Part shown: one piece after another, positions 3,437-19,021 of the stretch
How positions within the stretch are numbered: the first letter of the stretch is position 1
Layout: each line of letters opens with the position of its first letter
IMG/VR virus record: IMGVR_UViG_3300042466_000437
Location: 1-22,356 of that record
Length of the DNA stretch: 22,356 nucleotides
Origin: a virus
Strand: one strand, 5' to 3'
Notes under the pieces: model-generated
Told to the model about the DNA's origin: nothing
Seen by the model: only the letters and a program-made list of their open reading frames with translations
Databases searched by the model: none
Made by a program: the position numbers and the translations under genes

Positions 3437-4606
3437 TTATAACTCCGAACTTGCATCAATATAATCAGTACCAGAAGTATTAACTAAATCTCGAACAAAT
3501 GCATAAAATCTACCACTAAAACTTCCACTAGCAGTAAACGTTGCACCAACCCATTTAGTTGAACCTTCCCAATATGTTATACCTGTAATAGAATAACCAT
3601 TTGTCCAATAATCATTTATTTGACAACCACTACGAGCAAGTGATGGGATTGTTCTCATTTCTGTCATTAAAGTTGCACCTATTGTTCCATTATTTAAACT
3701 TGTTCCAACAGCACCAACCCAACCATATCCACCATTAAATCTTTGAAAATATCTTTGACATTGTTCTAAATCTTGTGCAAAAGGTTTAAACTCAAAAGGT
3801 GTAGCAGTAGCACCAACCTCAAGTTGAACACCAGTTATTTGCCAGTAGTTGTTAGTTGCTGATGCAAGGTTAACTTGACCAACAGAAGAATTAGCATCAG
3901 AATAAGTAGCCCAAGTAGTTTGCAAAGTACCAGAACTATAGTTACTTCCTACACCTAATCTAAATATTAATATTAAAGAAGCCTCATTATCGTTATCAAA
4001 AGCACCAGTAGTATCAGCAGGGAAAGTAATAGTTTTATATTCCCAAGTTGCTGAAGCATTAATAGTATATGATTTTGATACAACACGATTATTGTCAACA
4101 TCATAAAGACTAACAATGTAAGTACCAGTAACGTTTGCTTTAACCCAAAAAGAAATAGTTAATTGTTCTGCAGCAGCAGTTCCTTTTTTAACTACTTGAA
4201 GATTTTGTCCTTCAATACGTTGGTCTAAACGAACATAATCCGCACCTCCAGGAGATGCATCAGCAGTAGTACAAAGAACTTTTGTAGACTTTCTAAAACC
4301 TGAACCTGTTGGTGCATCGTTTTCAACACTCATAGTCCAAGTACCTTGAGAACTTGGTAATAATCTCCATCTATCAGTTGTTGCATAGGTATCTGAAGTT
4401 ATAGATGCTGTTGATGTACCACGTTGGGCAACCTGCATAGCACCATTAATAATCAGATTCTTAAAAGCAGTTCTATTATTTGCTTGTGTTAAATAAGTAG
4501 TAGACGCAGAAGCCTGCGTTAAATAAGTAGCAGCAACTTCTGCATCAGTTGAATATATAGAAGGCGGGGTAGAAATAATCTCCGCTACATCTCTTGCTTT
4601 ACTCAT
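3437..4606 (-). CDS. Jelly-roll tail fibre A (receptor-binding candidate)
   Basis: 389 residues. Residues 1-45 hold the RD module (MSKARDVAEI) and two 'TYLTQASAS'-type repeats that resemble trimeric fibre-neck sequence. Residues 48-280 are the conserved core: 'FKNLIINGAMQVAQRGTS', 'TTDRW', 'FWVKANVTGTY', 'KTITFPADTTGAFDNDN', 'YWQITGVQLEVG', 'CQRYF'. This is a carbohydrate-binding-like beta domain widespread in phage tail fibres (family knowledge; ligand unknown). Residues 288-389 are a tip unlike those of the two sister genes, so host contact probably resides there. It ends ...SSEL; the GAG codon of that ending supplies the ribosome site of the next gene. GGAG lies 12 bases before the ATG. 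Confidence 0.85.
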   Translation of the reverse strand: MSKARDVAEIISTPPSIYSTDAEVAATYLTQASASTTYLTQANNRTAFKNLIINGAMQVAQRGTSTASITSDTYATTDRWRLLPSSQGTWTMSVENDAPTGSGFRKSTKVLCTTADASPGGADYVRLDQRIEGQNLQVVKKGTAAAEQLTISFWVKANVTGTYIVSLYDVDNNRVVSKSYTINASATWEYKTITFPADTTGAFDNDNEASLILIFRLGVGSNYSSGTLQTTWATYSDANSSVGQVNLASATNNYWQITGVQLEVGATATPFEFKPFAQDLEQCQRYFQRFNGGYGWVGAVGTSLNNGTIGATLMTEMRTIPSLARSGCQINDYWTNGYSITGITYWEGSTKWVGATFTASGSFSGRFYAFVRDLVNTSGTDYIDASSEL

Positions 4607-4630
4607 ATATTAATTATATCTCCTTTTAAT

Positions 4631-4641
4631 TTTATATACCC
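4631..4641 (-). promoter_or_regulatory. GGGTATATAAA motif upstream of fibre A
   Basis: The 11-mer GGGTATATAAA occupies the short gap between two fibre genes. The identical 11-mer lies at 3252-3262, and near copies occur in most other gaps of this cluster (see finding). It could be a phage-specific promoter element or an RNA processing site; function unproven. Confidence 0.35.
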
Positions 4642-4644
4642 GCA

Positions 4645-5316
4645 TTATTTGTTGTAACCGTAAACTGAAACTGTACCTGTTATGGTTCCACTACTAGGAA
4701 ATAATGAAAAACCTGTAAATGAAGTAGTACTACCAAAACCTCCACCACCAACAAACCAACTTGCTTCATTAGTATTATTTATTCCAACACCATTATTTAC
4801 AATAGTTGTTTGAGCAGTTTGAAATGGTGAACTAATATTTAAACTTACTAATGCATTATTATTACCAGTTGTTCCAATTCTATAACTTGTTGTTGGGTCA
4901 GCGTTTTCGTTATTGATTGTTGATAAAGATGAATCTTTAGAAATTGCTGCACGATAGTAATCATTATTTGAGTTATCTGAACCACTAACTCTAAATCTTA
5001 AACTTATTAATGATTGAGCAGCAGTAGCATTAAAATTTAATACTACGTGATAATTTTCATAATTTGTACTAAACACATCATTTAAAGATATTGCACTAGC
5101 ACTAGAAAAAGATACAGTACCATTTGTTCCAATTGAAGCAGTTCCTCCTGTATTTGTAATTGAAGCAGGTGTAAGAAGTGTTAATCCAGCAGTAGCCTTA
5201 GTTTGATATACAGTTGAGGCACTAGCAGTAGTTAAATAACTAGCAGCCACCTCAGCGTCAGTAGCCAGGGTAGTATTAGAAGATAAAACCTTTGATATAT
5301 CTCTTGATCTAGCCAT
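4645..5316 (-). CDS. Modular fibre protein, RD module + 'SVYGYNK' family
   Basis: 223 residues. N-terminal RD module (MARSRDISKVLSSNTTLATD), one 'AASYLTTASASTVYQTK' linker, then a beta-rich body (about 44-223) with 'GTNGTVSFSSASAISLNDVFSTNYENYHVVL' and the C-terminal strand 'TGTVSVYGYNK'. Three sister proteins share this plan (7914-8543, 8832-9434, 14211-14891), with the middle third most variable. Function is not known; position among fibre genes and the shared N-terminus suggest an adhesin or fibre-tip subunit. The ATG overlaps the upstream stop by one base (TAATG), so translation is probably coupled. Confidence 0.8.
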   Translation of the reverse strand: MARSRDISKVLSSNTTLATDAEVAASYLTTASASTVYQTKATAGLTLLTPASITNTGGTASIGTNGTVSFSSASAISLNDVFSTNYENYHVVLNFNATAAQSLISLRFRVSGSDNSNNDYYRAAISKDSSLSTINNENADPTTSYRIGTTGNNNALVSLNISSPFQTAQTTIVNNGVGINNTNEASWFVGGGGFGSTTSFTGFSLFPSSGTITGTVSVYGYNK

Positions 5317-6521
5317 TATATTTCCCCATAAACTTTAATAGTTCCACCAGACATAGAATACTGTGCAAAAACTTCAATAGAAGTAATAGCAGTATTTGAT
5401 TCATACACAGCAGAACCAGTGCCCATAAACCTTGCACTAGAACCATTTAAAAATGCTGTATCGTGTGTAAAAATTTTGTAACTAGTAGTAGAAGTATAAT
5501 TAGGAAACTTAACAATAGTAATATTTGTTGTATCAGCAGCCTTCAAAGAAGTACCAGCATCAAGAGATAAATCAGTACCAGAGTTAGTACCATAAGATGT
5601 ACCAACAACACGAGACTGCCAACCACGAGTTGAACCAGAAGCATTAGGTCTAACAAGCCAGTAACCTGAGGTAGCAATGTTAGCGTTTTCAATAACAGCA
5701 ACAAGGTTTTTATATGCTTGGCTGATACTTGAAACAACAGTTGATGTTCCAGATAAAGTTGCTGATGCTAACAATACTAAACCACCAGCCGCAATAGGAG
5801 CATATGTAGCAGAAGCCGTTGCTGCAGTAATTCCAGCAGCCTGCGTTAAATATGTGCTACTAGCACTAGTTTTAGTTAAAAATTGATCATCAGTTTGTGC
5901 AATAGTATAAGTATTAGGAACTCTAAAATTCTTTAAGGTATAAATTTGAATTACGTCTCCAGATACCGCCGCTTCTGAGAGCACGACACTGGATCCACTT
6001 GTCGCGGTATATTCAGAAGGTAATAATAAAATTCCATTAACATATACTTGTTCTAAACCAGGGGTATAAGAAAGAGTAGTAGAATTATCATCTAATCCAC
6101 TTAATACCGTTGCAGAAGCACTTAATGTATCTATCCATCTAGTAAATGTATTAGCAATCTTATTATCTATTTGTCCTTGTGTATATGTATTTCCTACATT
6201 TATATTGTTATAGGCTATGATTTCTACTATATGCCCCGCAGTTAAGGCTGTAAGGCCTGTTATAGTCGTTCCTGTGGTTGCTGTATAGTCAGCATCTCTT
6301 GCTAGTAGAACACCATTAAGATATACCTGCTCATATCCAGGGGTATAAATTAAAGACTCTCCACTATCATCATTACCAGATAGAGATGTTTCTCCACCTG
6401 TCATAACTTTTTGCCAGCGGGTAGAATTAACTAAATTCCCAGTAGTATTTAAAGGTACCCATTCTGTACCATTATAAGCATATAAGGCTTTACCATTTGT
6501 TAATATTTGTGCTGATGCCAT
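5316..6521 (-). CDS. Fibre protein with two RW/DD/NG repeats
   Basis: 401 residues. Residues 1-30 contain 'ALYAYNGTEWVPL', a short motif seen at phage fibre N-termini. Two roughly 85-90-residue repeats follow (34-119 and 127-212), each running RW ... SG(N/L)DD ... YTPGxEQVYxNGxLL ... YTATxG ... NTYT. After a Ser/Ala linker (213-245), residues 248-401 form a beta domain related to the 'SVYGYNK' family (ending GTIKVYGEI). The repeats are shared with the 510- and 960-residue fibres and probably form shaft segments. The ribosome site AGGAGG lies inside the last codons of the small gene upstream, 12 bases before the ATG, so the two are likely co-translated. Confidence 0.8.
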   Translation of the reverse strand: MASAQILTNGKALYAYNGTEWVPLNTTGNLVNSTRWQKVMTGGETSLSGNDDSGESLIYTPGYEQVYLNGVLLARDADYTATTGTTITGLTALTAGHIVEIIAYNNINVGNTYTQGQIDNKIANTFTRWIDTLSASATVLSGLDDNSTTLSYTPGLEQVYVNGILLLPSEYTATSGSSVVLSEAAVSGDVIQIYTLKNFRVPNTYTIAQTDDQFLTKTSASSTYLTQAAGITAATASATYAPIAAGGLVLLASATLSGTSTVVSSISQAYKNLVAVIENANIATSGYWLVRPNASGSTRGWQSRVVGTSYGTNSGTDLSLDAGTSLKAADTTNITIVKFPNYTSTTSYKIFTHDTAFLNGSSARFMGTGSAVYESNTAITSIEVFAQYSMSGGTIKVYGEI

Positions 6522-6528
6522 ATTTTAA

Positions 6529-6687
6529 TTATACCTCCTCTGGAATATATTCTTCTGCTGTGTTGCCTTTGGCAACCCACTCTAAATATTCTTTGTAATC
6601 ATTGTTTGCTTCATCAAAAGGAATAGAAGCACTATCTGATATTCTTTGTAATATTTTTCTGTTGTTTACTAATAATATTTTATACAT
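6529..6687 (-). CDS. Small 'YLEWVAKGN' protein B (tail-fibre assembly-like)
   Basis: 52 residues (MYKILLVNNRKILQRI ... EEYIPEEV), too short for many gene callers. The core 'IPFDEANNDYKEYLEWVAKGN' is paralogous to the proteins at 3274-3435 and 14893-15057 and matches the motif of phage fibre-assembly proteins. It starts 2 bases after the stop of jelly-roll fibre B; the GAG of that fibre's final Glu-Leu supplies part of its ribosome site. Its own last codons GAG GAG GTA form the ribosome site of the next gene. A chaperone or tip-cap role for fibre B is inference. Confidence 0.8.
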   Translation of the reverse strand: MYKILLVNNRKILQRISDSASIPFDEANNDYKEYLEWVAKGNTAEEYIPEEV

Positions 6688-6689
6688 AA

Positions 6690-7895
6690 TTATAACTCTA
6701 TCTGTGCTACGTAGTTAGCACCAATTAAATATCCAGCAGGAGATTGCGTTGCTGTTGCATACATTGAAAAACTATTTTGATTAATATAATCAGCAATACC
6801 ACTAAAACTATTTGCAGCACTAAGACCATAAATGCTTCCACTAGCACCAGTTGATGGGTTATAAATAGTTACAGTTGGGGCTGCTCTCATAGGTACTTTA
6901 AGGAAAACAGGTATTGCACTTCCGTAACCACCTGTTGTTACTGAAGACCATATTACTGCTTGTGCTTCAGTTCCTGTGGCTCCAGCAAAAACTGATTGAT
7001 TGTAAGATTTTTGATAATATCTTTGACATTTACGCAATGTTGTTTCAAAAGGCTCAAACTCAAAAGGTGTAGCGGTAGCACTAATTTCTAATTGAACACC
7101 AGTAATTTGCCAGTAGTTGCTGGTTGCTGATGCAAGGTTAACCTGACCAACAACACGATTAGCAGTAGTTGGTGAAACCCAAGAAGAACTATTTAAAGTA
7201 CCAGAAGTAAGGTTACTTCCAGCACCAAGAAACCATTGAATAAAAACAGAAGCATCATTATCATTATCAAAAGCACCAGTAGTATCTGCAGGAATAGTAA
7301 TTGTTTTATATTCCCAAACACCAGATGCAGATATTGTGTAAGATTTAGATATTGCTCTTGTATTATCAGCATCATATATTTCAAATATATATGTACCAGT
7401 AACATTTGATTTAACCCAAAAAGAAACAGTTAATTGTTCGGCTGCTGCTGTACCCTTTTTGATTTGTTGAAGGTTTTGTCCTTCTATAGTTTGACTTAAA
7501 AGTACAACATCTCCAGAGGCAGGTGAAGCATCAGCAGTAGTACATAAAACTTTAGTTGATTTTCTAAAACCAGAACCTGTAGGTGCATCATTTTCAACAC
7601 TCATAGTCCAAGTACCTTGGGTAGTTATTTGAAACTGCCATCTATCTGCAGTTCTATAGCCAGTAGTTGTTAAAGAAGAAGCAGATGTACCACGTTGGGC
7701 AACCTGCATATCACCATTAATAATCAAGTTACGAAAATTAGACCCTTTATATATAGTAGAAGCAGATGCTTGTGTTAAGTAGGAAGAAGAGGCAGAAGCA
7801 TTAGTTAAATACCCTGCTGATGAAGTTTCTGTGTCAGTTGCATAAATATTTGGCGGGGTAGTAACTAATCTACTCACATCTCTTGCTCTAGTCAT
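6690..7895 (-). CDS. Jelly-roll tail fibre B (receptor-binding candidate)
   Basis: 401 residues with the same plan as fibre A. An RD module (MTRARDVSRLVTTPPNIYATD) is followed by three 'YLT.ASAS' linker repeats, then the core starting 'FRNLIINGDMQVAQRGTS' with 'FWVKSNVTGTYIF', 'TITIPADTTGAFDNDND' and 'YWQITGVQLEISATATPFEF', then a distinct tip of about 105 residues after 'CQRYYQKSY'. It ends ...VAQIEL. Long DNA stretches of the core are nearly identical to those of fibre A, so recent duplication or recombination is likely. The start is preceded by GGAGG 12 bases away; between them lies a 4-codon ATG...TGA frame whose stop overlaps this ATG. Confidence 0.85.
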   Translation of the reverse strand: MTRARDVSRLVTTPPNIYATDTETSSAGYLTNASASSSYLTQASASTIYKGSNFRNLIINGDMQVAQRGTSASSLTTTGYRTADRWQFQITTQGTWTMSVENDAPTGSGFRKSTKVLCTTADASPASGDVVLLSQTIEGQNLQQIKKGTAAAEQLTVSFWVKSNVTGTYIFEIYDADNTRAISKSYTISASGVWEYKTITIPADTTGAFDNDNDASVFIQWFLGAGSNLTSGTLNSSSWVSPTTANRVVGQVNLASATSNYWQITGVQLEISATATPFEFEPFETTLRKCQRYYQKSYNQSVFAGATGTEAQAVIWSSVTTGGYGSAIPVFLKVPMRAAPTVTIYNPSTGASGSIYGLSAANSFSGIADYINQNSFSMYATATQSPAGYLIGANYVAQIEL

Positions 7896-7913
7896 ATATT
7901 AATCATACCTCCC

Positions 7914-8543
7914 TTATTTGTTGTATCCATAGACTGAAATTGTACCTGTAATAGTTCCAGCATCTGGAAATATTGTAAAACCTGTATAAGAAGTATTTTG
8001 ATTATGAGTAGCCAAATTTAACTGAGATTGGGCACCATCACTTGAAGTTAAAGCAGTTGCATATAATCCAGTTGAGGTAGCCAAAAATGGATTATATACA
8101 TCCATACTAATAGTGTTTACTAAAGTAGTATTCCAATAACCTAAAAGATACATTGTTGTAGTATCCCTAAAACCACTAATTGTTGTATTGTTTGAGTTAG
8201 TTCTTTGTCTTACATAAGCATTTGTTGTTGAATCATCACTACTAGAAACTCTATATCTAAATTGAAATTGTGCCGCTGTACTTGGTAGTCCTGTTACTAC
8301 AATTCTATAATTGTCATAAGTTGAACTAAATACATTATTCAAAGAAACTGCTGAAGCACTTGTAAAGGATACAGCACCAGTTGTACTAATTGATCCACTA
8401 CCACCAGTAACAGATATTGTTAATGGAGTAAGTTCTATTAATCCTGTTTTAGCAATAGTTTGATAAGTAGAACTAGCAGACGCAAGACTTAAAATCGAGG
8501 TATTCGAAGTTAAAATCTTACTTACATCTCTAGTTCTACCCAT
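7914..8543 (-). CDS. Modular fibre protein, RD module + 'SVYGYNK' family
   Basis: 209 residues: RD module (MGRTRDVSKILTSNTSILS), a short 'ASSTYQTIAKTG' linker, and the beta-rich body with 'GSGSISTTGAVSFTSASAVSLNNVF' and the ending 'TGTISVYGYNK'. Its closest relatives are at 4645-5316 and 14211-14891. The middle segment (about residues 105-170) differs most, including 'TTTMYLLGYWNTTLV'. Start supported by AAAGGAG seven bases before the ATG. The gene lies directly upstream of jelly-roll fibre B, as the 223-residue sister lies directly upstream of fibre A, so this pair was probably duplicated as a unit. Confidence 0.8.
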   Translation of the reverse strand: MGRTRDVSKILTSNTSILSLASASSTYQTIAKTGLIELTPLTISVTGGSGSISTTGAVSFTSASAVSLNNVFSSTYDNYRIVVTGLPSTAAQFQFRYRVSSSDDSTTNAYVRQRTNSNNTTISGFRDTTTMYLLGYWNTTLVNTISMDVYNPFLATSTGLYATALTSSDGAQSQLNLATHNQNTSYTGFTIFPDAGTITGTISVYGYNK

Positions 8544-8572
8544 GATAATCTCCTTTAATTATATCTTAATTC

Positions 8573-8583
8573 TATTTATACCG
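8573..8583 (-). promoter_or_regulatory. CGGTATAAATA motif upstream of a fibre gene
   Basis: CGGTATAAATA lies in the 47-base gap before the gene at 7914-8543. It belongs to the recurrent GGGTATAWA set and contains TATAAATA, the core of T4-type late promoters. That resemblance may be chance in A/T-rich DNA; no late sigma factor gene is visible here. Confidence 0.3.
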
Positions 8584-8590
8584 TGGAAAA

Positions 8591-8815
8591 TTATGAAAGA
8601 ACTGTTGCTAGTTCTTCTTCTGTTAATCCAAGTCTTTCTAGAATCGCTGCTTTTGCTACAGCCTTTTCTGCTGCTGCTTCTTCTCTTGCTTCTTGTTCTG
8701 CTTGCATTGCTGCACGATCAGCCAAGAACGCTTCAAGTTCAGCACCTTCTAACACTCTAACAACTGTTTCTCCAGTTGCTGCGTTAGTTTCAGATACTCT
8801 GATTTCTTCTGACAT
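8591..8815 (-). CDS. Small Ala/Glu-rich helical protein
   Basis: 74 residues: a short start (MSEEIRVSETNAATGETVVRVL), then an Ala/Glu-rich helix (about 25-57, likely coiled coil) and the ending 'ILERLGLTEEELATVLS'. Small proteins with this 'KAAxLxRLGLTxEE' ending are common in phage tail-fibre regions, but I know of no assigned function. Strong ribosome site (AAAAGGAGGTAA) before the ATG. G+C and codon use look less A/T-rich than in the neighbours. An open frame on the opposite strand covers the same bases and is best read as its shadow. Confidence 0.8.
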   Translation of the reverse strand: MSEEIRVSETNAATGETVVRVLEGAELEAFLADRAAMQAEQEAREEAAAEKAVAKAAILERLGLTEEELATVLS

Positions 8816-8831
8816 AATTTACCTCCTTTTC

Positions 8832-9434
8832 CTATTTTCTATATCCGTAAATTGATAATGATCCAGTAAAAGTTCCGCCACTCCAACTAAAACCATCATA
8901 AGAATCTGTTGTTACATGAAAACCATTTACAATCCCCATTTCATTATTGGTACTTGCTACAGCGGTATAGTTTGAATAATAGTTTGTTCTGCTTGCGGAT
9001 ACAAAAGGTTCAACAATTTCATAAATGTTAGAACTAAAATAATCTCCCATTGCACCAGAAGACCATTGTGCTGCCGAACCAGCATAACTTCTAGATGGAC
9101 CAGCGGAATTACCTGCATAAATATATGTATAAAAATAATTACTAGATGATTCAACTGTATTTTTTACAAATTTAATACTACACCCAGCAACAGAAGTAGA
9201 TGTGTTAGTTCCAGCAATAATAATTTTATAGTTATCATAAGAACTTGAAAAGCATCCATTAACTTTAACTGCAGTAGCACTTGTTAAAGAAATTTTACCA
9301 GTTGAAGATATAGTTCCACTACCACCAGTAACAGTGAAAGAAGTCGGGGTAATTAAAGACAATCCTAATTCACTATCCAAAGCAACATTACCACTACTAG
9401 ATAATATGTTTGCTAGATCTCTTGCTCTACCCAT
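8832..9434 (-). CDS. Modular fibre protein, RD module + 'SVYGYNK'-like family
   Basis: 200 residues: RD module (MGRARDLANILSSSGNVALDSE), no 'YLTQAS' linker, then 'LSLITPTSFTVTGGSGTISSTGKISLTSATAVKVNGCF' and an ending 'FTGSLSIYGYRK'. It is the most diverged member of the four-gene family. The internal segment 'GNSAGPSRSYAGSAAQWSSGAMGDYF' may be its receptor-facing part (inference). Its ATG overlaps the stop of the C1q-tipped fibre by one base (TAATG), so the two are probably made together. A possible role is a second tip or cap subunit on the same fibre. Confidence 0.75.
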   Translation of the reverse strand: MGRARDLANILSSSGNVALDSELGLSLITPTSFTVTGGSGTISSTGKISLTSATAVKVNGCFSSSYDNYKIIIAGTNTSTSVAGCSIKFVKNTVESSSNYFYTYIYAGNSAGPSRSYAGSAAQWSSGAMGDYFSSNIYEIVEPFVSASRTNYYSNYTAVASTNNEMGIVNGFHVTTDSYDGFSWSGGTFTGSLSIYGYRK

Positions 9435-10966
9435 TATATTTTATGCCCCCAAAAATTAGCATGAGGTGAATAAAGGGTTGCATTAGAACCACGATTATGA
9501 TAAACCATAGCCTCAATATAATCACCAGCATTTAAACTTACTAATTTTGACCAGGTTCCAGCAACTACATCTGAACCACTATCACGCCATAAAATAGCGT
9601 TATTTTCTAAATTAGATCCATTTTTATAAAAACCAAATTGAAATTGGTGAGCCGCACTATAGATACCCCAAGCAACATCCATACCAAGCAAATATACTCC
9701 ACCTTGACCAGATGGTACAGTAAAGCGATAGTTTGTTACTGGATCATAAACTCCCGCACTATCAAAAACTTCTGTATCAAATTGAACCTTAGTCCAAGTA
9801 ATGGTTGCAATTGATTGATTAGTAGAAATTCTTGCAGAAAAACCTATTCTTGTATTTTGATTAACATATGTGCTACTAGCACTAGATTGTGTTAAAAATC
9901 TATTATCTGCTTGAGTAGTAGTATAAGTATCAGCCACATTAAATGGTTGAGTATTTACTATTTCTATAATATCGCTTGTTACTACCGCGGATCCTAGGGT
10001 AATTACTGAAGCAGAAGTTCTTGCATAATCAGTAATCGGGGTAAGTAAAATTCCATTTAAATAAACTTCTTCATATCCAGCAGTATATAATAAAGATAAT
10101 GCATTATCGTCTACCCCGCTAATTACGGTAGCAGAAGCAGAGAAAGTTTTTGTCCATCTAGTTCTAGTATTATATTTAGCATCTATTTGTGCGATGGTAT
10201 AAGTGTTTGCTACTTCAAATGCTTTAGGTATAATTAAATCTACAACATCTCCAGATACAATTGCTTCGTCAGGTGTGATCACTGATGCACTTGTGCGGGT
10301 ATATTCAGAAGGATCTACTAATACACCGTTAATATAAAGAGATTCTAATCCAGAAGTATATAATAGGGATTCAGAATAATCATCTACCCCAGTAATTGTT
10401 GTTGCACTTGCTGAGTAAGTTTTTGTCCAACGATCTATTCTAGATTCGTCTATTGCAAAGAATTTTGCGTCTGCTGCAGCCTGTGTATAGGTATCTGCAA
10501 TTTGGAATGATTCGTAAGAGTGAACCTCAACGGCATCTCCACTTTCTGCTGCTGTTGTTAAAACAATTGTGTTCCCAGTTGTCGCGGTATAGTCAGAACC
10601 TCTTACTAATAAAGTACCATTTATAAATACTTTTTCATATCCTGCTGTATAAATTAAAGATAAAGCATTGTCATCTAATCCTGATAATGTTGTTGCACTA
10701 GCACTTAATACTGAAATCCAACGAGTAAATGTTGCTGGTAATAATCCTGAAATTGCGTCTTCATCGCTATCGATCCATAATGCACCAGCATCTAAAGATG
10801 CAGTGTCTGGTTGATCTACTTGAAATGCTACGGTAGCGTCTCCGCCACCACCTACTGTGCCTACACCACTGAAAAAAGTCCAAGCAGATCCGTTCCACTT
10901 CCAAGTGGTACCGTCTGATTTAAATGTATCATTTACGGCGGGGGATGCAGGAAAAATTGTAGCCAA
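9434..10966 (-). CDS. Fibre with three RW/DD/NG repeats and a C1q-like tip
   Basis: 510 residues. Residues 1-35 (FPASPAVNDTFKSDGTTWKWNGSAWTF) are a typical fibre N-terminal motif. Three roughly 90-residue repeats follow at 80-169, 178-267 and 269-357 (RWxxxxSASATxxSGxDD ... YTxGxExxxxNGxLL). After 'SSASSTYVNQ', residues 373-510 read as a C1q/TNF-like jelly roll: 'GFSARISTNQSI', 'KVQFDTEVFD', 'YDPVTNYRFTVPSGQGGVYLL', 'FYKNGS', 'GDYIEAMVYH'. Such domains trimerise and bind ligands at phage fibre tips (family knowledge). The start codon is TTG, supported by GAGGTGAT just upstream, an excellent anti-16S match. An extended -10 promoter precedes it. Confidence 0.8.
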   Translation of the reverse strand: MATIFPASPAVNDTFKSDGTTWKWNGSAWTFFSGVGTVGGGGDATVAFQVDQPDTASLDAGALWIDSDEDAISGLLPATFTRWISVLSASATTLSGLDDNALSLIYTAGYEKVFINGTLLVRGSDYTATTGNTIVLTTAAESGDAVEVHSYESFQIADTYTQAAADAKFFAIDESRIDRWTKTYSASATTITGVDDYSESLLYTSGLESLYINGVLVDPSEYTRTSASVITPDEAIVSGDVVDLIIPKAFEVANTYTIAQIDAKYNTRTRWTKTFSASATVISGVDDNALSLLYTAGYEEVYLNGILLTPITDYARTSASVITLGSAVVTSDIIEIVNTQPFNVADTYTTTQADNRFLTQSSASSTYVNQNTRIGFSARISTNQSIATITWTKVQFDTEVFDSAGVYDPVTNYRFTVPSGQGGVYLLGMDVAWGIYSAAHQFQFGFYKNGSNLENNAILWRDSGSDVVAGTWSKLVSLNAGDYIEAMVYHNRGSNATLYSPHANFWGHKI

Positions 10967-10983
10967 GTTATATCACCTCTCTC

Positions 10984-10992
10984 ATTATAGCA
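10984..10992 (-). promoter_or_regulatory. Extended -10 promoter before the C1q-tipped fibre
   Basis: On the minus strand TGCTATAAT (TGnTATAAT, perfect) lies in a 34-base gap, followed by GAGAGAGG and the ribosome site. No strong -35 is seen. Transcription would start about 10 bases before the TTG codon, giving a very short leader. The context AATGCTATAAT is shared with 3232-3242. Confidence 0.55.
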
Positions 10993-11000
10993 TTACGTAA

Positions 11001-11276
11001 TTAATTTACTTCTTCCCATAAACAAGTTTCTTCGTTTAAGTTCCATTCACCAATTTCTGGTTTTGGCGGTATAAAAGCATCTAACTCTTCATCATATTTA
11101 TATCCAATACCAGCATAATTTTTTCTAATTCTATTATTATAAGAAGTTTGAATCCATACTCCACCTAAATTTAAATCATTTGCAAGATATTGTTGTCCTC
11201 TATGTTCTTGAAAATCAGGAATAACTAATACTTGTAAAACAATATTATTATTATCTATTTGTGCAAAATGTGACAT
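11001..11276 (-). CDS. Small conserved virion-associated protein
   Basis: 91 residues: MSHFAQIDNNNIVLQVLVIPD ... GGVWIQTSYNNRIRKNYAGIGYKYDEELDAFIPPKPEIGEWNLNEETCLWEEV. The 'xHFAxIDxNNxVxxVxVI', 'W(I/L)QTSYNNxIRKNYAGIGY.YDxxxDAFIPPKP' and 'WxLNExTCLWE' segments are hallmarks of a small protein common in marine and freshwater tailed phages, usually near tail or neck genes. It is thought to be structural; its exact position is not known to me. The start follows the upstream stop with one base between (TAATATG), indicating coupling to the Gly-rich adhesin gene. Confidence 0.8.
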   Translation of the reverse strand: MSHFAQIDNNNIVLQVLVIPDFQEHRGQQYLANDLNLGGVWIQTSYNNRIRKNYAGIGYKYDEELDAFIPPKPEIGEWNLNEETCLWEEVN

Positions 11277-11277
11277 A

Positions 11278-12624
11278 TTATCTTAGATACCTCACTATTA
11301 CTATACCTGATCCACCAGCAGCACCATCTCCACCAGTAGATTTACCGCCACCACCACCACCAGTAAACGCAGTTCCAGCAACGGGAGAAGTATTTGAACC
11401 AGCACCACCACCGCCAGTTCCACCAGCAGCGCCTGTACCATTTCCAGCACCGCCACCACCACCAGCGTATGCTGTTGATATACCAAAAATAGATGTTGTT
11501 ACACCATTTCCACCAATACCAGGAACTGTTCCGTTACCTGCTGTACCCACACCACCTGCACCGCCACCACCACCAGCAGTTAAATTAGTTGAATTACCTA
11601 CTCCACCAGCATATCCTTGATTTGCTGTTCCACTTCCTGCAGGAGTTGATTGAGCACTATTGGTACCACCACCACCACCTGAACCACCTGTTTTACCAGG
11701 AACGTCAGGACCTGCATCGTAAGCACCACCACCACCACCACCAATAGAAGTTATAGTTGAAAATGAAGAATTGCTTCCATTGGCACCTTGACCATTACTT
11801 GTTCCGCCTATGCCACCTGCACCAACAGTTACTGTATAACTTGTGCTAGCAGTTAAACTTAGTGGGGTTTCAAGTGAACCTCCGCCGCCTGTTGCTCCGA
11901 CTGTGCAACGCAATCCTCCTGCTCCACCACCTGCACCATTTCCTGCACCACCGCCGCCACCACCTGCAACTACTAGGTAGTCAACAGTTAAATTCTGATT
12001 AGGAATAAATACATGAGATGATGTAAAAGTATGATATACATATGTGCTATCAGTTGTAATCATTCCACCTACTGCTTTTGCAAATTTAGATGGAACATCA
12101 CCTATACCGTATAAAGTGGCGGTAGTGTGTTGGGAAAACCCTGTTCCAATATGATTAGTAATTGTAATTTTTGTTATTGCAGAAGTGTCAGACCATAAAC
12201 CAGCACTTATTGTTAAATATCCGTAGTTCGCTGTTCCACTATTATTTTCAGTAACAATATCTGATGAAATAGATTTAAAATTAGAACTTGTATAATTTGA
12301 TATATAAATTTCATTATTACTAAATACGTTTGCAGTTGCTGATGATGCAGGGCTAAAACCTTGAGGTAAATACGATGAGGCTCCAGAACTTGATGAGGAA
12401 TATGCTGCTGTGTAGTCACCATAAAGATCACGTCTAGAATAGTTTGAATTAGAATCATTAAATGTAATTCGGGCTAAATCAACCTGCTCTCCTGAACGAT
12501 TGGCCCTAGTAGAAAAAACTATTTTTAAATCAGTAAAAGTTTGGGGTATAGAAGTAAAATTAATAGCAGAAGTACCACCAGATCCTACTACTACACTTGC
12601 TATTTTTTTATATGTATTAGGCAT
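11278..12624 (-). CDS. Adhesin with 'IPQxFTDL' domain and glycine-rich tip
   Basis: 448 residues. Residues 1-175 form a beta domain (INFTSIPQTFTDLKIVFSTRANRSGEQ ... LYGIGDVP) paralogous to the whole proteins encoded just upstream at 12624-13115 and 13118-13705. Residues 185-213 link to a glycine-rich domain (214-448) that begins 'DYLVVAGGGGGGAGNG' and closes 'GGSGIVIVRYL', with poly-Gly runs separated by short loops. This Gly-rich fold is known from phage adhesins; in phage S16 gp38 such runs form packed polyglycine-II helices and the loops bind the receptor. By analogy this is a receptor-binding tip. The ATG overlaps the upstream stop by one base. Confidence 0.85.
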   Translation of the reverse strand: MPNTYKKIASVVVGSGGTSAINFTSIPQTFTDLKIVFSTRANRSGEQVDLARITFNDSNSNYSRRDLYGDYTAAYSSSSSGASSYLPQGFSPASSATANVFSNNEIYISNYTSSNFKSISSDIVTENNSGTANYGYLTISAGLWSDTSAITKITITNHIGTGFSQHTTATLYGIGDVPSKFAKAVGGMITTDSTYVYHTFTSSHVFIPNQNLTVDYLVVAGGGGGGAGNGAGGGAGGLRCTVGATGGGGSLETPLSLTASTSYTVTVGAGGIGGTSNGQGANGSNSSFSTITSIGGGGGGAYDAGPDVPGKTGGSGGGGGTNSAQSTPAGSGTANQGYAGGVGNSTNLTAGGGGGAGGVGTAGNGTVPGIGGNGVTTSIFGISTAYAGGGGGAGNGTGAAGGTGGGGAGSNTSPVAGTAFTGGGGGGKSTGGDGAAGGSGIVIVRYLR

Positions 12625-13115
12625 TATGCATTACCTGCTTGTATACCGTAGAGATTAAAAGTTGTACCTGATAAAAAGGTTGTAGAATCAGCCTTAATGG
12701 TTATTGCAGAAACTGCTTCCATACTACGTCTAATTCCAGCCCTTAGTTGAACATAAGTACTGTTGTTTGCTCTGCTAATAACAGTTTTATTTGTTGTCGT
12801 GTTAGCGTAATTAAAAATTTGAACAATAACAGTTCCTTGCTCATCAGAACCAGAGGAAATACCACCTAAGCCAATTGAACTAACATTACTATCTCGGTTT
12901 GATGTAACAGTTGAACCATTACCATACAAAGCAGTAACAGAATAATTATTAGTTGTATCAGAATTAAACTGAAGATTTGTATTTTCGTCTCCGTCAGTTC
13001 TGCCATTAAATATAACAATTAAATCAGTATATGTTTGTGGAATAGAACTAAAAGTAATAGAAGAAGCATTTACCCCTAGTATTGTTGATGCTATCGGTGT
13101 GTACGTTGCAGCCAT
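12624..13115 (-). CDS. Beta-sandwich adhesin-like protein ('IPQTYTDL' family)
   Basis: 163 residues: MAATYTPIASTILGVNASSITFSSIPQTYTDLIVIF ... FNLYGIQAGNA. It corresponds to the N-terminal domain of the Gly-rich adhesin immediately downstream and to most of the 195-residue protein immediately upstream, so three copies of one domain stand in tandem. Variable loops lie around residues 40-60 and 80-95. The fold also resembles the bodies of the 'SVYGYNK' proteins (hydrophobic strand, NY or YTDL, variable middle, (L/V)YG ending). It starts 2 bases after the preceding stop. Function unknown; likely a fibre or tip subunit. Confidence 0.75.
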   Translation of the reverse strand: MAATYTPIASTILGVNASSITFSSIPQTYTDLIVIFNGRTDGDENTNLQFNSDTTNNYSVTALYGNGSTVTSNRDSNVSSIGLGGISSGSDEQGTVIVQIFNYANTTTNKTVISRANNSTYVQLRAGIRRSMEAVSAITIKADSTTFLSGTTFNLYGIQAGNA

Positions 13116-13117
13116 TA

Positions 13118-13705
13118 TTATCCCTTAATTCCGTATAGAGCAAAAGAAGAATATTGTGCAAAATTATTTTGATTTGGCAATAAAATAATTGATGTTACAG
13201 AACTTGTTGAACGCCAATGACCAGACCACAAACCAGTAATACCACTACCATTAGCATCCCAACCTGACAAAGTTGCTACAGTCTTAAATTTGTTAGTATT
13301 TGAATAATCTAAAATGTTTATAGCACAAGCCTCAAAAGAATTAGCAAGAGAAGTAGAAGCAATCACTGCACCAGTATAAATATAAGTAGAACTAGTTTCG
13401 TTACCTGATATACCAGAACTACCATTTCCTGTTAAATAATGACTAGCATAATTTGCTCCAGTATCACTATTAAATCTTAAAATAGTATTAACAGATGAAG
13501 CAGCAGTGGTTGAACGAGCAATACCTCTAATATGCAAATGGGTATAATCTTGTGGAATGTTAGAAAAAGTAATGCTAGAAGCAGCAACATTTAATGTAGT
13601 AGTAGCAATCTGAAAAAATCCATCGGTAGTAGCAGTTTGATCCCAAACTCTTCTACGCTTAACACCAGAAACCAATGATGATGTAGATAAACTAGTAATT
13701 GCCAT
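13118..13705 (-). CDS. Beta-sandwich adhesin-like protein with short N-terminal extension
   Basis: 195 residues. Residues 1-28 (MAITSLSTSSLVSGVKRRRVWDQTATTD) are an extra basic segment absent from its two paralogues; it could be a docking peptide. From residue 30 it follows the family: 'QIATTTLNVAASSITFSNIPQDYTHLHIRG', a variable middle with 'LTGNGSSGISGNETSS', and the ending 'SFALYGIKG'. A one-base TAATG overlap couples it to the 111-residue protein upstream. It is the first of the three tandem copies in transcription order. Confidence 0.75.
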   Translation of the reverse strand: MAITSLSTSSLVSGVKRRRVWDQTATTDGFFQIATTTLNVAASSITFSNIPQDYTHLHIRGIARSTTAASSVNTILRFNSDTGANYASHYLTGNGSSGISGNETSSTYIYTGAVIASTSLANSFEACAINILDYSNTNKFKTVATLSGWDANGSGITGLWSGHWRSTSSVTSIILLPNQNNFAQYSSFALYGIKG

Positions 13706-14040
13706 TATGCAGTTATCTCCGATCCAAAAATGTTGAATGAAGTATCTGCAGTAGCGGCATAAACTGTTATAACATCAGATGCATCTAAGGTTGCACCTAT
13801 GGTTATGGCAGTAGTATCATTTGCAGCCAATGCAACATCATATGCAATATAGTGCTTATTTGCTAATGTTTCAGCATTAGGTCTAATTGCAATACGATAT
13901 GTAGTAGCGCTTGTAGATCTATTACAAACAGTAATAGTAGATACAATTGTTTGTACCCCTGCTCCAACGGTATAAATATCAGTATTGCTTGTTGCACTAG
14001 GTGCATTTTGTGCTAATACTTTATATGTTTTTGTAGCCAT
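13705..14040 (-). CDS. Small all-beta virion-type protein (paralogue of 604-921)
   Basis: 111 residues: MATKTYKVLAQNAPSATSNTDIYTVGAGVQTIVSTITVCNRSTSATTYRIAI ... DTSFNIFGSEITA. No membrane segment or signal peptide. It shares plan and local sequence with the 105-residue protein at 604-921, both ending in a strand plus '(L/S)EIT'. The start has a strong ribosome site (TAGGAGG) lying in the last codons of the 46-residue gene upstream. Likely a small fibre- or tail-surface protein; role unknown. Confidence 0.75.
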   Translation of the reverse strand: MATKTYKVLAQNAPSATSNTDIYTVGAGVQTIVSTITVCNRSTSATTYRIAIRPNAETLANKHYIAYDVALAANDTTAITIGATLDASDVITVYAATADTSFNIFGSEITA

Positions 14041-14041
14041 T

Positions 14042-14182
14042 TTAACCTCCTAGTTGCATTAATATATCTGGATTATTATCAGCGTCAATAGTGTCTAATT
14101 CTGCTACCGTTGCTAATTCATCGAGGGTAGAAATAGTAACACTATCATTCAATAACTTACTTATATCTCTTGTTCTTGACAT
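14042..14182 (-). CDS. 46-residue stand-alone RD module
   Basis: A complete short frame: MSRTRDISKLLNDSVTISTLDELATVAELDTIDADNNPDILMQLGG. Residues 1-12 match the N-terminus of seven larger fibre genes here; the rest is acidic and contains 'TLDELATVAELD' and 'NNPDIL', the latter resembling the 'GDNPDIL' repeat of the 960-residue fibre. It is bounded by a ribosome site (AAGGAG, 13 bases before the ATG) and, inside its last codons, the ribosome site of the next gene. It may be a true small docking or plug protein, or the remnant of a fibre that lost its body; the intact signals favour a working gene. Confidence 0.7.
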   Translation of the reverse strand: MSRTRDISKLLNDSVTISTLDELATVAELDTIDADNNPDILMQLGG

Positions 14183-14199
14183 AGTTATATTATATCTCC

Positions 14200-14208
14200 T
14201 TTATACCC
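14200..14208 (-). promoter_or_regulatory. GGGTATAAA motif upstream of the stand-alone RD gene
   Basis: GGGTATAAA sits in the 28-base gap between the stop of the 226-residue fibre protein and the 46-residue gene, directly followed by GGAGATATAAT. It belongs to the recurrent motif set described in the findings. Role unproven. Confidence 0.3.
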
Positions 14209-14210
14209 GA

Positions 14211-14891
14211 TCATTTATTGTATCCGTAAACTGAAATAGAACCAGTAATGTTTCCATTTTCACTAATTAAACTAAAGCCATCATATGAAGAAGAAACATC
14301 ATGTACTCCTCCACCAGCAAATCCTTGAACTACTGATGAATCAGTTATTGCTGAACCGTAGTGTCCCATTTTTGTTTTATTTGCAGTAAAGGGGTCAATA
14401 AGGTCTATAAAATAACCTTGGTATCCAGTTGCAGAGTTATCCATTTGACCTACTTTAAAACTTGAAACATTGTTTCCTTGTTGTGATACGTCAAATCCTG
14501 CATGAGTTCTTGCCCAAAAAGCATAGTAATACGTAGTGCTTGCGTCAGTTGTACCTGAACGAAGTTTTAAAAAATGCCATCCATCATTAGCACTATTTGA
14601 TGTTATATCTACTAATATTCTATAATTATTATATGATGAATTAAATATAGTATTTAAAGATATTGAAGATGTAGATGTAAAACTAACAGTTCCATTTGTT
14701 CCTATTGATCCACTTCCGCCTGTAGCAGTTATTGAAGTTGGGGTTAGTAAAATCAATCCTGTAGCAGACTTAGTTTGATATACAGTTGAGGCACTAGCCT
14801 GTGTTAAATAATTAAATGCAGAAATTTCACTATCCGTAGCCAACGCGGTATTTGTAGAAAATACTTTTGATATATCTCTTGCTCTACCCAT
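14211..14891 (-). CDS. Modular fibre protein, RD module + 'SVYGYNK' family
   Basis: 226 residues: RD module (MGRARDISKVFSTNTALATDSE), linker 'FNYLTQASASTVYQTKSATG', body 'LTPTSITATGGSGSIGTNGTVSFTSTSSISLNTIFNSSYNNYRI' and ending 'TGSISVYGYNK'. It is closest to the 223-residue sister at 4645-5316 over the first 90 residues. The middle ('YYYAFWARTHAGFDVSQQGNN', 'GFAGGGVHDVSSSYDGF') is its own. It begins one base after the stop of the small YLKWV protein and shows no clear ribosome site, so it probably relies on reinitiation. Confidence 0.8.
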   Translation of the reverse strand: MGRARDISKVFSTNTALATDSEISAFNYLTQASASTVYQTKSATGLILLTPTSITATGGSGSIGTNGTVSFTSTSSISLNTIFNSSYNNYRILVDITSNSANDGWHFLKLRSGTTDASTTYYYAFWARTHAGFDVSQQGNNVSSFKVGQMDNSATGYQGYFIDLIDPFTANKTKMGHYGSAITDSSVVQGFAGGGVHDVSSSYDGFSLISENGNITGSISVYGYNK

Positions 14892-14892
14892 A

Positions 14893-15057
14893 TTATTCTG
14901 CCACCCATTCTTCTGCTGTGTTGCCTTCAGAAACCCATTTTAAATATTCTTGATATTCATTAAGTGATTCATTTAAAGGAATCCATAATGTTTTATCAGA
15001 TTCTATTTTAATAATAAATGATTGATTAAGTTCATCACCTGTTTTTATTTTATACAT
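14893..15057 (-). CDS. Small 'YLKWVSEGN' protein C (tail-fibre assembly-like)
   Basis: 54 residues: MYKIKTGDELNQSFIIKIESDKTLWIPLNESLNEYQEYLKWVSEGNTAEEWVAE. Third member of the family found after each jelly-roll fibre; here the 'DEANxDY' part reads 'NESLNEY'. The ATG shares its A with the stop of fibre C (TAATG), and GGAG comes from that fibre's penultimate codons. The match to phage fibre-assembly proteins is at motif level only. Confidence 0.8.
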   Translation of the reverse strand: MYKIKTGDELNQSFIIKIESDKTLWIPLNESLNEYQEYLKWVSEGNTAEEWVAE

Positions 15058-16139
15058 TATAACTCCGCACTAAAGGAAATAGTGGTTATGTCTCCACCCC
15101 AACGATATATTGCACCGTGAGCCGTGGTAGCACTAGACATTCCTTGTAAATGAATTACTTGACCAGCAACACCTGCGTAGTTTGCAGATATACTTGTAGG
15201 TGTTCTTAATGCCACACCAGTTTGTTCTATCATATCCGTATATGTTGCAGATTTTACAGTCATAACTGCATCCGTTCTCATAGGAACTGGATTAGTAAAA
15301 CTAACTTTACATTGAGTTGTACTATAAAATGAACCTACTGCACCGTATGGGTAAAGATTTGTATAATATCTTTGACATTGTGCAAGTTCTTGTTGTGCAG
15401 GAAGAAACTCAAAGGGTGTAGCAGTATCACCAACCTCAAGTTGAACACCAGTAACCTGCCAGTAGTTATTAATTGCTGATGCAACGTTAACCTGACCAAC
15501 GTGTGAATTAGCATCAGTATATGAACCCCAAGTACTTTGTAAAGTACCAGAAGTAAAATTACTTCCAAAACCAAGACCAAAAATTAAACCTAAAGAAGCA
15601 GCATTATCGTTATCAAATGCACCAGTGGTATCAGCGGGGAACGTAATAGTTTTCTTTTCCCAAGTTCCTGAAACACTAATAGTGTAAGAAGCAGAGTCAC
15701 CTCTAGTGTTGTCGTAATCAACTAATCTAACAGTGTGAGTACCAGTAACATTTGATTTAACCCAAAAAGAAAGAGTTAACTGTTCTGCAGCAGCGGTCCC
15801 TTTTTTAATATGTTGAAGGTTTTGACCTTCTAAATAAGTATCTAATCTAACTTGATCACTTGCAGCAGGAGAAGCATCAGCAGTTGTGCAAAGAATTTTT
15901 ACTGATTTACGAAAACCTGAACCTGTTGGTGCATCGTTTTCTTGAGACATTGTCCAAGTTCCCATACTTCCTACAGTAAAGTTAAATCTATCTACTGTGT
16001 AATAGTTACTTGTAGTAATAGATGCTGTGGATGTACCACGTTGGGCAATCTGCATATCACCATTAATAATTAAGTTCTTAAAATTATCAGAAGGACCTTG
16101 AGAACTTCTAGTAGTTAAAATATTACTTAATTTTGCCAT
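15057..16139 (-). CDS. Jelly-roll tail fibre C (receptor-binding candidate)
   Basis: 360 residues. It lacks the RD module and starts MAKLSNILTTRSSQGPSDN, then enters the common core (NFKNLIINGDMQIAQRGTS ... FWVKSNVTGTHTV ... TFPADTTGAFDNDNAASLG ... YWQVTGVQLEVGDTATPFEF ... CQRYY). The tip of about 100 residues ('YPYGAVGSFYSTTQCKVSF', 'TDMIEQTGVALRTP') differs from those of fibres A and B; it ends ...FSAEL. I chose the ATG at 16139, which overlaps the upstream stop (TAATG) and has GGAGG 8 bases before it, over an ATG 15 bases earlier that lacks a ribosome site. Its position right after the long 960-residue fibre suggests it could form that fibre's distal part. Confidence 0.85.
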   Translation of the reverse strand: MAKLSNILTTRSSQGPSDNFKNLIINGDMQIAQRGTSTASITTSNYYTVDRFNFTVGSMGTWTMSQENDAPTGSGFRKSVKILCTTADASPAASDQVRLDTYLEGQNLQHIKKGTAAAEQLTLSFWVKSNVTGTHTVRLVDYDNTRGDSASYTISVSGTWEKKTITFPADTTGAFDNDNAASLGLIFGLGFGSNFTSGTLQSTWGSYTDANSHVGQVNVASAINNYWQVTGVQLEVGDTATPFEFLPAQQELAQCQRYYTNLYPYGAVGSFYSTTQCKVSFTNPVPMRTDAVMTVKSATYTDMIEQTGVALRTPTSISANYAGVAGQVIHLQGMSSATTAHGAIYRWGGDITTISFSAEL

Positions 16140-19021
16140 TATATAGTCCTCCATCCATAAGTAGTATTAGTATATATAAATTCTACACTACCATTGTTTA
16201 CATCTATAGTGAAATTTTCTTCTACCCCGTCAATTTTTTCACTATTTCTACCAACAGTAATATTATTAATATTAGCATTATTAGATAAGTCGGAAATAAG
16301 CACTTTATGACCCAATATAGGAGTAGCAGGTAGTGTTATAGTATGTGCACTAGCCGAGGTATTTACAAAAATAACATCATTAATACTTGCAGTATAAGGA
16401 CCATTAACTATATAAGTATTTCTTTTTATTTCATATCTAGCATCTGCTTGAGTTTGAGTATATAGATTTCCTACGTTTAATATTTCATGAGATTTAATTT
16501 CTACTATATCCCCCGAAGATACCGCTTCAACTAGAAGTACGGTGCTGCCACTTGTTGCAGTATAGTCAGTGGTTCTTGTTAATAAAATACCGTTTACAAA
16601 TATTTCTTCATTACCAACTGTATAAGATAGGGTAAGAGAACTGTCGTCTAAGCCAGAAATTGTTGTAGCACTTGCACCCATTGTTTTTGTCCAGCGGGTA
16701 TAGTTAGAAACCTTTTGATCTATTTCTGCTTTAGTATATGCATCTGCAAAATTAAATGATTGTACTGCTATAACTTCTACTACGTCATTATTAACTACCG
16801 CTTCATTTAGAACTATAGTACTGCCACTTGTGGCGGTATAGTTAGAAATATCTTGTAAAATACCATTAATAAATACTTGTTCTAATCCTGGAGTATAATT
16901 TAAACTAAATAAATCATCATCTGTACCCGAAATTAATGTTGCACTTCCACTATAAGTCTTAGACCATCTTGTAAAACTTCCACCATCGGTGCTTCCAGAG
17001 CCTTCAGGGGCTGTTTCTACCCAGAAAGTGCCGTCATACACATAAAATGACCCATCAGTATTATCAAACCAGGCATCACCCTCTACGGCCCCTACAGGAG
17101 CACTTGCTGAAACAATAATGCTTGCTCCACCACTACTAGCAGATCCACCACCACCTGCAGAGCCAACTAATATAACTTGATTATTAGCATCATCATATGT
17201 TGCTGTTATATTTGTATGATTTGAGTGAATAAATAAACTTGATGATTGATCTTGAATATATTCTATACCGTCTGCATTTTTTGCAACATAGTTTGCTGAA
17301 GCATTTGCTTGAGTTAAATAAGTTGCTGATGCTGATGAAGCATCTAGTTTTGCTGCTAAAGAATTTGTTACTGTAGTTGCAAAACTTGAGTCATCATTTA
17401 ATGCTGCTGCTAGTTCATTGAGGGTATCTAGTGCACCAGGTGCACCGTCTAACACCGCTGTTACTGCTGCGGCAGAAGCACTGTTAATGATTGATTGTTG
17501 ACTTGATAATGGTATAAAAGTTACACTTGCTGCATTAATTGCTCTTTCGTGAGTAAAGTATAAATTACCAGGATCAACAAGATTGATTGTTCCTTGCATT
17601 GATGAATGAAATTGACAAGCGTAATATAAAGTATTCGGAGCATTTAATGGGATTGTCCAAGTTATTGTTCCGTTATCTGTACCAAGATTTGTTGTTCCAG
17701 TTGAATAAATATTCCCAGAACTATATCCTCCAGATGCTGACTGAATCCAAAATGGATGTCCACTTGCATTTATAACAAATGTATAAGTATTTCCCTTTAC
17801 TAAATTAAATGTTGGATTGTTTACGGCAGCAACAACGTATGCACCAGTTCCACTATTTGTTACGGTAAATGTTTCATTTCCAGCAACAGTAGGTTCTGGA
17901 ATATCGTTAGTAGTTAAAGCGTTTATTTCAGAATTTGTATAAGCGCTTGCGCTTGCATATGCTGTGGCAGATGCGCTATTGATTATTCCTTGTTGGCTTG
18001 ACTGTAATATGTAAGTTGCTGATCCTGCGTTAACTGCTCTTTCATTTGTGAAGTATAGGTTTGTGTTTTCTGCAATGTCTGCTGTTGTTAGTGCATCTGC
18101 GTATACTACTGCGGCTGCTGAGGCTGTTACGATTGCTGAAGCAAGTTCTGCGTCTGTTGCAAAGTTTGGTGACGCTGAAGCATAGTCTGCTTGAGTTAAG
18201 TATGTTGCTGAGGCGGTATTTGAAGTAATAAATGTAGATAGAATATCTGGATTATCTCCTAATGCTGCTGCTAATTCGTTAAGGGTATCTAGTGCACCTG
18301 GTGCACCGTCTAGTACTGCAGTTACTGCGGCTGCAGAAGCAGTATTAATAATTGACTGTTGGCTTGTTTGAAGAATGTATGTAGCACTTGCTGCATCAAT
18401 TGCTCTTTGGTTTGTAAAGTATTTATTAGTTCCTTCTTCAATGTCTGTAGTTGTTAAAGCATTTATTTGAGACAAAGTGTTAGCACTTGCTGAAGCATAA
18501 GCCGCAGCCGATGCGGAGTTTGAGTATGAGTTTGCTTGAGAAAGTGCATAAGCAGATGCAGACGAAGTGGCTCCCGCTGTTGCATCTAAGGCTCTTTGGT
18601 TTGTAAAATAAAGCCTACTTCCTTCTTCTATGTCAGAAGTAGTTAAAGCATTAATTTGAGCATTTGTATATGCTGAGGCTGATGCGTAGGCCGTTGCTGA
18701 AGCAGAATTTATGGTAGTAGCAATATTGCTAAAGAATGATGGATCATCACCAATTGCTGCTGCTAGTTCGTTTAGTGTGTCAAGGAGTGCAGGTGCTGAA
18801 TCAATCAGGTCACCAATTTCAGAATTTATGTAGGCTATAATTGAGGCTGAAGCAGCATATACGTCTGCAAAATAATCTAGTTCGGTCCAATTAGAAGAAC
18901 CATCACCAATTTTTATTTTATTAGTGTCAGTTTCTACTCCAACTTCGCCAGATGCTAAGATTGGATTGGAACTAGTCCAAGAAGAAGCGATACCTCTTCT
19001 TAACTGAATTCTTGTTGCCAC
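16139..19021 (-). CDS. Long repetitive tail fibre with cupredoxin-like insert
   Basis: 960 residues, the largest gene here. Residues 1-50 (IQLRRGIASSWTSSNPILASGEVGVETDTNKIKIGDG) match the Mtd-type N-terminal module of phage fibres. Residues 55-375 and 485-560 hold Ser/Ala-rich repeats: 'TLNELAAA(I/L)GD' three times and '(L/K)YFTN(Q/E)RA' or its 'YFTHERA' variant four times. Inserted at about 376-486 is a cupredoxin-like domain with His422, Cys469, His472 and Met475 in type-1 copper-ligand order. Residues 640-672 are a 'GDAWFDNTDGSFYVYDG' motif. Two RW/DD/NG repeats lie at 683-863, and a C-terminal beta domain (867-960, 'SAHTITLPATP') closes it. The start is GTG with only GGGGG as ribosome site. 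No exact tape-measure or enzymatic motif is seen. Confidence 0.85.
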   Translation of the reverse strand: MATRIQLRRGIASSWTSSNPILASGEVGVETDTNKIKIGDGSSNWTELDYFADVYAASASIIAYINSEIGDLIDSAPALLDTLNELAAAIGDDPSFFSNIATTINSASATAYASASAYTNAQINALTTSDIEEGSRLYFTNQRALDATAGATSSASAYALSQANSYSNSASAAAYASASANTLSQINALTTTDIEEGTNKYFTNQRAIDAASATYILQTSQQSIINTASAAAVTAVLDGAPGALDTLNELAAALGDNPDILSTFITSNTASATYLTQADYASASPNFATDAELASAIVTASAAAVVYADALTTADIAENTNLYFTNERAVNAGSATYILQSSQQGIINSASATAYASASAYTNSEINALTTNDIPEPTVAGNETFTVTNSGTGAYVVAAVNNPTFNLVKGNTYTFVINASGHPFWIQSASGGYSSGNIYSTGTTNLGTDNGTITWTIPLNAPNTLYYACQFHSSMQGTINLVDPGNLYFTHERAINAASVTFIPLSSQQSIINSASAAAVTAVLDGAPGALDTLNELAAALNDDSSFATTVTNSLAAKLDASSASATYLTQANASANYVAKNADGIEYIQDQSSSLFIHSNHTNITATYDDANNQVILVGSAGGGGSASSGGASIIVSASAPVGAVEGDAWFDNTDGSFYVYDGTFWVETAPEGSGSTDGGSFTRWSKTYSGSATLISGTDDDLFSLNYTPGLEQVFINGILQDISNYTATSGSTIVLNEAVVNNDVVEVIAVQSFNFADAYTKAEIDQKVSNYTRWTKTMGASATTISGLDDSSLTLSYTVGNEEIFVNGILLTRTTDYTATSGSTVLLVEAVSSGDIVEIKSHEILNVGNLYTQTQADARYEIKRNTYIVNGPYTASINDVIFVNTSASAHTITLPATPILGHKVLISDLSNNANINNITVGRNSEKIDGVEENFTIDVNNGSVEFIYTNTTYGWRTI

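Follow-up and report, generated by a model that had tools for sequence, protein, structure and literature searches.

The tail fibre encoded by a viral DNA stretch of 22,356 nucleotides (hereafter the window; IMG/VR record IMGVR_UViG_3300042466_000437) carries, within one of its repeats, a domain that is predicted to adopt the cupredoxin fold and that retains the four residues of a type-1 copper site. The explanation that we favour, with a probability of about three in four, is that a cupredoxin domain with an intact type-1 site is displayed on the fibre, where it would be filled with copper and assist adsorption, and that it behaves as a module. The domain family is already catalogued as PHROG 677, and one deposited record names a member PetE; new here is a cupredoxin branch that serves as a viral tail module. 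A literature search combining cupredoxins or copper with phage tails, which left most subscription papers outside its range, returned no account of a copper site.

A domain interrupts a repeat of the tail fibre

The fibre gene and the features of its inserted domain are the following.

16139-19021, minus strand: 960-residue tail fibre with a GTG start, reading frame open and complete
17564-17896, minus strand: inserted cupredoxin-like domain, fibre residues 376-486, from sequence, model and profile
17756-17758, minus strand: codon for His422, predicted to be the first of the copper ligands; its column is that of the first His ligand in plastocyanin and amicyanin
17597-17617, minus strand: codons for Cys469-x2-His472-x2-Met475, the loop predicted to supply the other ligands, spaced as in amicyanin

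The N-terminus of the fibre matched Mtd_N (E = 7e-14) and the 960-residue protein matched tail fibre PHROGs. Its repeats are of two types, LTTxDIxE/YFTxxRA and RWxK...DD. Complete units of the first type, in which a gap of 2-6 residues separates LTTxDIxE from YFTxxRA, were found at fibre residues 126, 189 and 311. Across the fetched loci this gap was nearly always 2-6 residues, versus 109 at the insert, and the few longer gaps found elsewhere consisted of more repeat or fibre sequence. The interruption of a repeat at window positions 17564-17896, which a preliminary description of this DNA had reported together with His422, Cys469, His472 and Met475 as candidate ligands, is thus real, with the coordinates and the four residues placed correctly. 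The insert holds GHPFWIQ, which includes His422, and YYACQFHSSMQG, which includes Cys469, His472 and Met475; Cys469 is the sole Cys among the 960 fibre residues and Met475 is one of two Met.

A run of tail-fibre-like genes, also on the minus strand, extends over 3437-16154 of the window. Its genes have paralogous segments in common (3736-4466 and 7004-7740 resemble part of 15057-16154), which suggests a receptor-binding gene array built by duplication. The DNA of the whole window had no near match among phage records.

Predicted fold and relatedness to copper proteins

The structure prediction and fold search proposed in the preliminary description were run on the inserted domain. AlphaFold2, supplied with a 37-sequence alignment, gave an eight-stranded beta sandwich (pLDDT 90, pTM 0.82) with the Greek-key arrangement of the cupredoxin type. 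With this model, Foldseek found 141 PDB matches at an E value of 0.001 or below; each of the 50 listed has the cupredoxin fold, and they comprise rusticyanin (5e-6), AcoP, copper nitrite reductases, pseudoazurin, plastocyanin, amicyanin, laccases and CuA domains. The TM-scores were moderate (about 0.5-0.66), so the inserted domain would represent a divergent cupredoxin branch. The predicted fold was also matched by three entries of BFVD (A0A481Z6J5, A0A481Z7Q7 and A0A481YVH3; E about 1e-7 to 1e-8), all short proteins of uncultured pitho- and marseilleviruses that are named "beta-sandwich proteins".

A deep profile was needed to relate the sequence to solved cupredoxins, because single-sequence searches with the window domain gave chance matches only against PDB sequences and a single sub-threshold match (At5g54830-like) against Pfam. 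The window domain on its own reached no curated cupredoxin model, matching neither the plastocyanin model TIGR02656 nor the amicyanin model TIGR02657, the latter giving weak matches in 15 of 37 relatives. The deep profile, built from 30 diverse domains with a mean column identity of 33% and searched against PDB sequences, found copper nitrite reductase (5.3e-6 and 6.1e-5), plastocyanin (1.9e-4), amicyanin (2.7e-4) and rusticyanin (3e-3). In its alignments to plastocyanin and amicyanin all four ligand columns coincided, and the ligand loop had the length of that of amicyanin. Single relatives reached curated models by themselves (rusticyanin 7.6e-6, Copper-bind 9.5e-6, plastocyanin 1.3e-4, amicyanin 3.1e-4). 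Notchless/WD40 proteins, which had been matched by a shallow profile, were absent among the best matches of the deep profile.

The domain thus has in common with amicyanin, plastocyanin, rusticyanin and copper nitrite reductase the predicted fold and the His...Cys-His-Met order in aligned columns, with an upstream His and with Cys, His and Met in the last loop. It had been described as type-1-like in spacing, which holds, and as tighter than plastocyanin, which is incomplete: the C-x2-H-x2-M loop is by alignment identical to that of amicyanin, whereas plastocyanin has C-x2-H-x4-M. The first ligand His is followed by Pro in the inserted domain and by Asn in plastocyanin and amicyanin. The distance from His to Cys is 47, the same as between His37 and Cys84 of plastocyanin, and differs from the 39 of amicyanin. 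Compared with solved cupredoxins, the inserted domain sits within a tail fibre with no evident signal peptide and, taken alone, falls below curated cut-offs. The predicted fold, the profile matches with aligned ligands and the near-invariance of these ligands in relatives (below) bear out the cupredoxin identity first proposed, and support the insert as a relative of blue copper proteins that has kept all four copper-holding residues.

Copper as the bound metal is predicted from this ligand set. Three of the four ligands can also bind zinc and the sequence does not fix the metal, so that the site might instead be a structural clamp around zinc or some other metal. The solved relatives that were found, however, use His-Cys-His-Met within a cupredoxin fold to hold copper, and we regard another metal as very unlikely.

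Two other metal domains of phage tails were compared with the insert. Iron-binding HxH motifs in T4 gp37 and in marine phage fibres place a metal site on the tail fibre and underlie a Trojan-horse hypothesis (PMC11705849); motif, metal and fold are all unlike those of the inserted domain, and the 960-residue fibre contains zero HxH, so that an iron site of this kind was rejected. The YHYH domain is a predicted metal domain of tail and baseplate proteins with a His triad and an Asp, predicted to be a zinc hydrolase (PMC7824862). It was likewise rejected, since the insert gave no match to Pfam YHYH and its conserved residues differ.

The ligand residues are nearly invariant, except in a second copy

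An iterated profile search over all fetched loci yielded 100 distinct domains. His-Cys-His-Met was present in 92 of them; one had Asn-Cys-His-Met and one, a second copy in the window, Asn-Ser-Glu-Met, the remainder being partial matches or domains in which the ligand loop was wholly lost. With 92 of 100 distinct homologous domains keeping the set, the domain is not a product of chance. Since the early search patterns had contained the ligand motifs, the scan was redone with a motif-free query. In this motif-blind sample the set was found in 55 of 55 distinct domains besides the second copy, 39 of them new. This near-total retention outside the second copy points to selection for the site.

The following features describe the second copy.

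1502-2821, minus strand: 439-residue collagen-like tail protein with a second copy of the domain
1880-2167, minus strand: second domain copy, residues 219-314 (hmmsearch 1.2e-20, hhalign 98.4%)

Its ligand places are occupied by Asn, Ser, Glu and Met, only the Met being kept, which makes it a natural ligand-less control within the same window. Its model (pLDDT 79), from an alignment that included ligand-bearing relatives and may be biased by them, matched rusticyanin (3.9e-4) and other cupredoxins. In the closest distinct relative of the second copy (locus L103, 40%), whose sequence is split between frames, both the first His and the Cys-His-Met loop are preserved. Judged from the model, the second copy seems to have lost the site without losing the fold; a metal would then not be needed for folding in all settings, and copper may be dispensable.

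This copy is an argument for reading the insert as a plain beta-sandwich decoration of real cupredoxin ancestry, with a site that survives as a structural relic or stands empty on the virion. Ig-like domains are decorations of this kind that are shuffled among phage tails, and the present module is likewise spliced into many scaffolds. A relic, however, would shed its ligands singly. Loss was near all-or-none: where the first His was missing, the Cys-His-Met loop was mostly missing as well, and the lone exception was a Lentisphaerae protein (L086:6001-6288) that has Asn at the first His position beside an intact Cys-His-Met loop. All four ligands were within the six most conserved columns among 35 domains of less than 62% identity, at a mean identity of 34%, and together with their retention in 55 of 55 motif-blind relatives this makes a mere decoration unlikely in our view.

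The domain behaves as a cassette under purifying selection

Copies with 83% and 81% DNA identity to the window domain were found in two loci, L004 and L005. There the domain interrupts another repeat, with RWKKVY/RWRKTY on one side of it and the GxDDN part on the other. The L004 flanks match window positions 10192-10148 and 10111-9868, within the following feature.

9868-10192, minus strand: uninterrupted RWTK...VDD repeat of the reading frame at 9434-10966, a natural empty site; the homologous L004 repeat holds the cassette

Because the L004 cassette lies in a repeat that is uninterrupted in the window, related phages have received this module in repeats of two types. When the N-terminal part of the fibre was used as the query, 80 loci were obtained and the domain was present in only two, both identical to the window; the insert is therefore not fixed in this fibre family. 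Among the three copies (window, L004 and L005) dN/dS was about 0.12-0.17, with dS of 0.5-0.8, as computed by the Nei-Gojobori method with the Jukes-Cantor correction. The domain thus behaves like a cassette and is under purifying selection.

The domain is widespread in tail and baseplate proteins of aquatic phages

The preliminary description had presented the insert as an oddity of one fibre and had suggested a search in other phages. This search changed the picture: tblastn found the domain in 348 phage records, mostly of Synechococcus and Prochlorococcus phages, and IMG/VR gave 179 matches with the motif-containing query and 362 with the motif-free one, so that the domain is a module found widely in the tail and baseplate proteins of aquatic phages, and secreted bacterial proteins are related to it as well. 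By annotation, its virion context is the gp9 baseplate connector, fibres and collagen-like tail proteins; a peptidase-annotated tail protein is a further carrier, and some proteins hold two domain copies. PHROG 677, the cyanophage gp9 baseplate wedge tail fibre connector, contains the same domain (E 1.6e-26, profile positions 312-410 of 412). It is C-terminal in gp9, whereas it is an internal insert in the 960-residue fibre. The gp9 ligands are intact in P-SSM4, S-CAM8, S-RIM14, S-8S29 and ACG-2014d.

Fifteen contigs labelled bacterial or archaeal also carry the domain, some encoding clearly cellular secreted proteins and some being possibly viral. Among the secreted bacterial relatives are CHRD-repeat proteins and others, from Flavobacterium, Lysobacterales and further groups; they are about 50% identical and have intact ligands. 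Unlike the fibre insert, they bear the domain at the ends of cellular proteins that are apparently exported.

A proposed role in adsorption

The domain's role is probably in adsorption. We propose that the fibre would fold inside the host, in a cytoplasm poor in free copper, and that the site would take up copper during or after lysis, a timing suggested by the phage versions read, which show no evident signal peptide. The fibre is probably trimeric and would then present several copper sites. A copper-filled site could stiffen the ligand loop and offer a host-facing surface that helps adsorption, and the domain would be a module that moves from one fibre or baseplate scaffold to another, fitting into the loops of their repeats.

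A narrower form of this explanation, by analogy with the iron hypothesis, is that a host surface protein of copper uptake or handling would recognise the copper-loaded domain; both can hold, the one being a special case of the other. Nearly all sequenced carriers infect marine picocyanobacteria, and the version with iron and HxH tail fibres is published (PMC11705849). The domain is also found, however, in baseplate gp9 and in several copies in long tail proteins, which are not clearly receptor-binding tips, and the metal of cupredoxins is largely buried. We consider such recognition quite improbable.

Cupredoxins are known as electron carriers of cells and as parts of oxidases, and the ligand set of the insert is that of the electron carriers rusticyanin and amicyanin, as would suit a site that trades electrons with a redox protein of the host surface. 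Contact with such a protein was one of two roles put forward in the preliminary description, the other being a more rigid trimer. Electron exchange is the least supported role, and we give it hardly any weight: no redox genes were recognised within the window, the site has no known partner protein, and electron carriers on the cell surface are not a known feature of picocyanobacteria.

Here a cupredoxin with an intact predicted site recurs as a part of the machinery by which abundant aquatic phages adsorb, in carriers for which the usual annotation is baseplate connector or hypothetical protein. This domain ties these phages to trace-metal chemistry and makes virion copper directly and cheaply testable. 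As a speculation with a small chance of being right, the virions of many marine phages could be copper-loaded after lysis through this mobile fibre and baseplate module, use it in host attachment, possibly via host copper handling, and act as a dissolved copper ligand in seawater.

Further members of the family

The gene after gp9 in cyanophages encodes one or two more divergent domains of the cupredoxin-like family, with ligands in some and absent in others.

L098:4277-8266: gene after gp9, divergent family domains
L108:2627-4309: gene after gp9, divergent family domains
L117:2253-4241: gene after gp9, divergent family domains
L118:2256-4244: gene after gp9, divergent family domains
L110:2274-4259: gene after gp9, divergent family domains

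Three flavobacterial proteins (L083, L088 and L089) have repeated CHRD-like domains and an intact family domain at the end. The protein annotated PetE (plastocyanin) of Synechococcus phage S-SCSM2R (L104:4788-5294) is a 168-residue member of the cupredoxin-like tail-domain family; it has a tail-fibre-like N-terminus, no evident signal peptide and adjoining tail-like genes, and is probably a structural protein, not the product of a metabolic gene.
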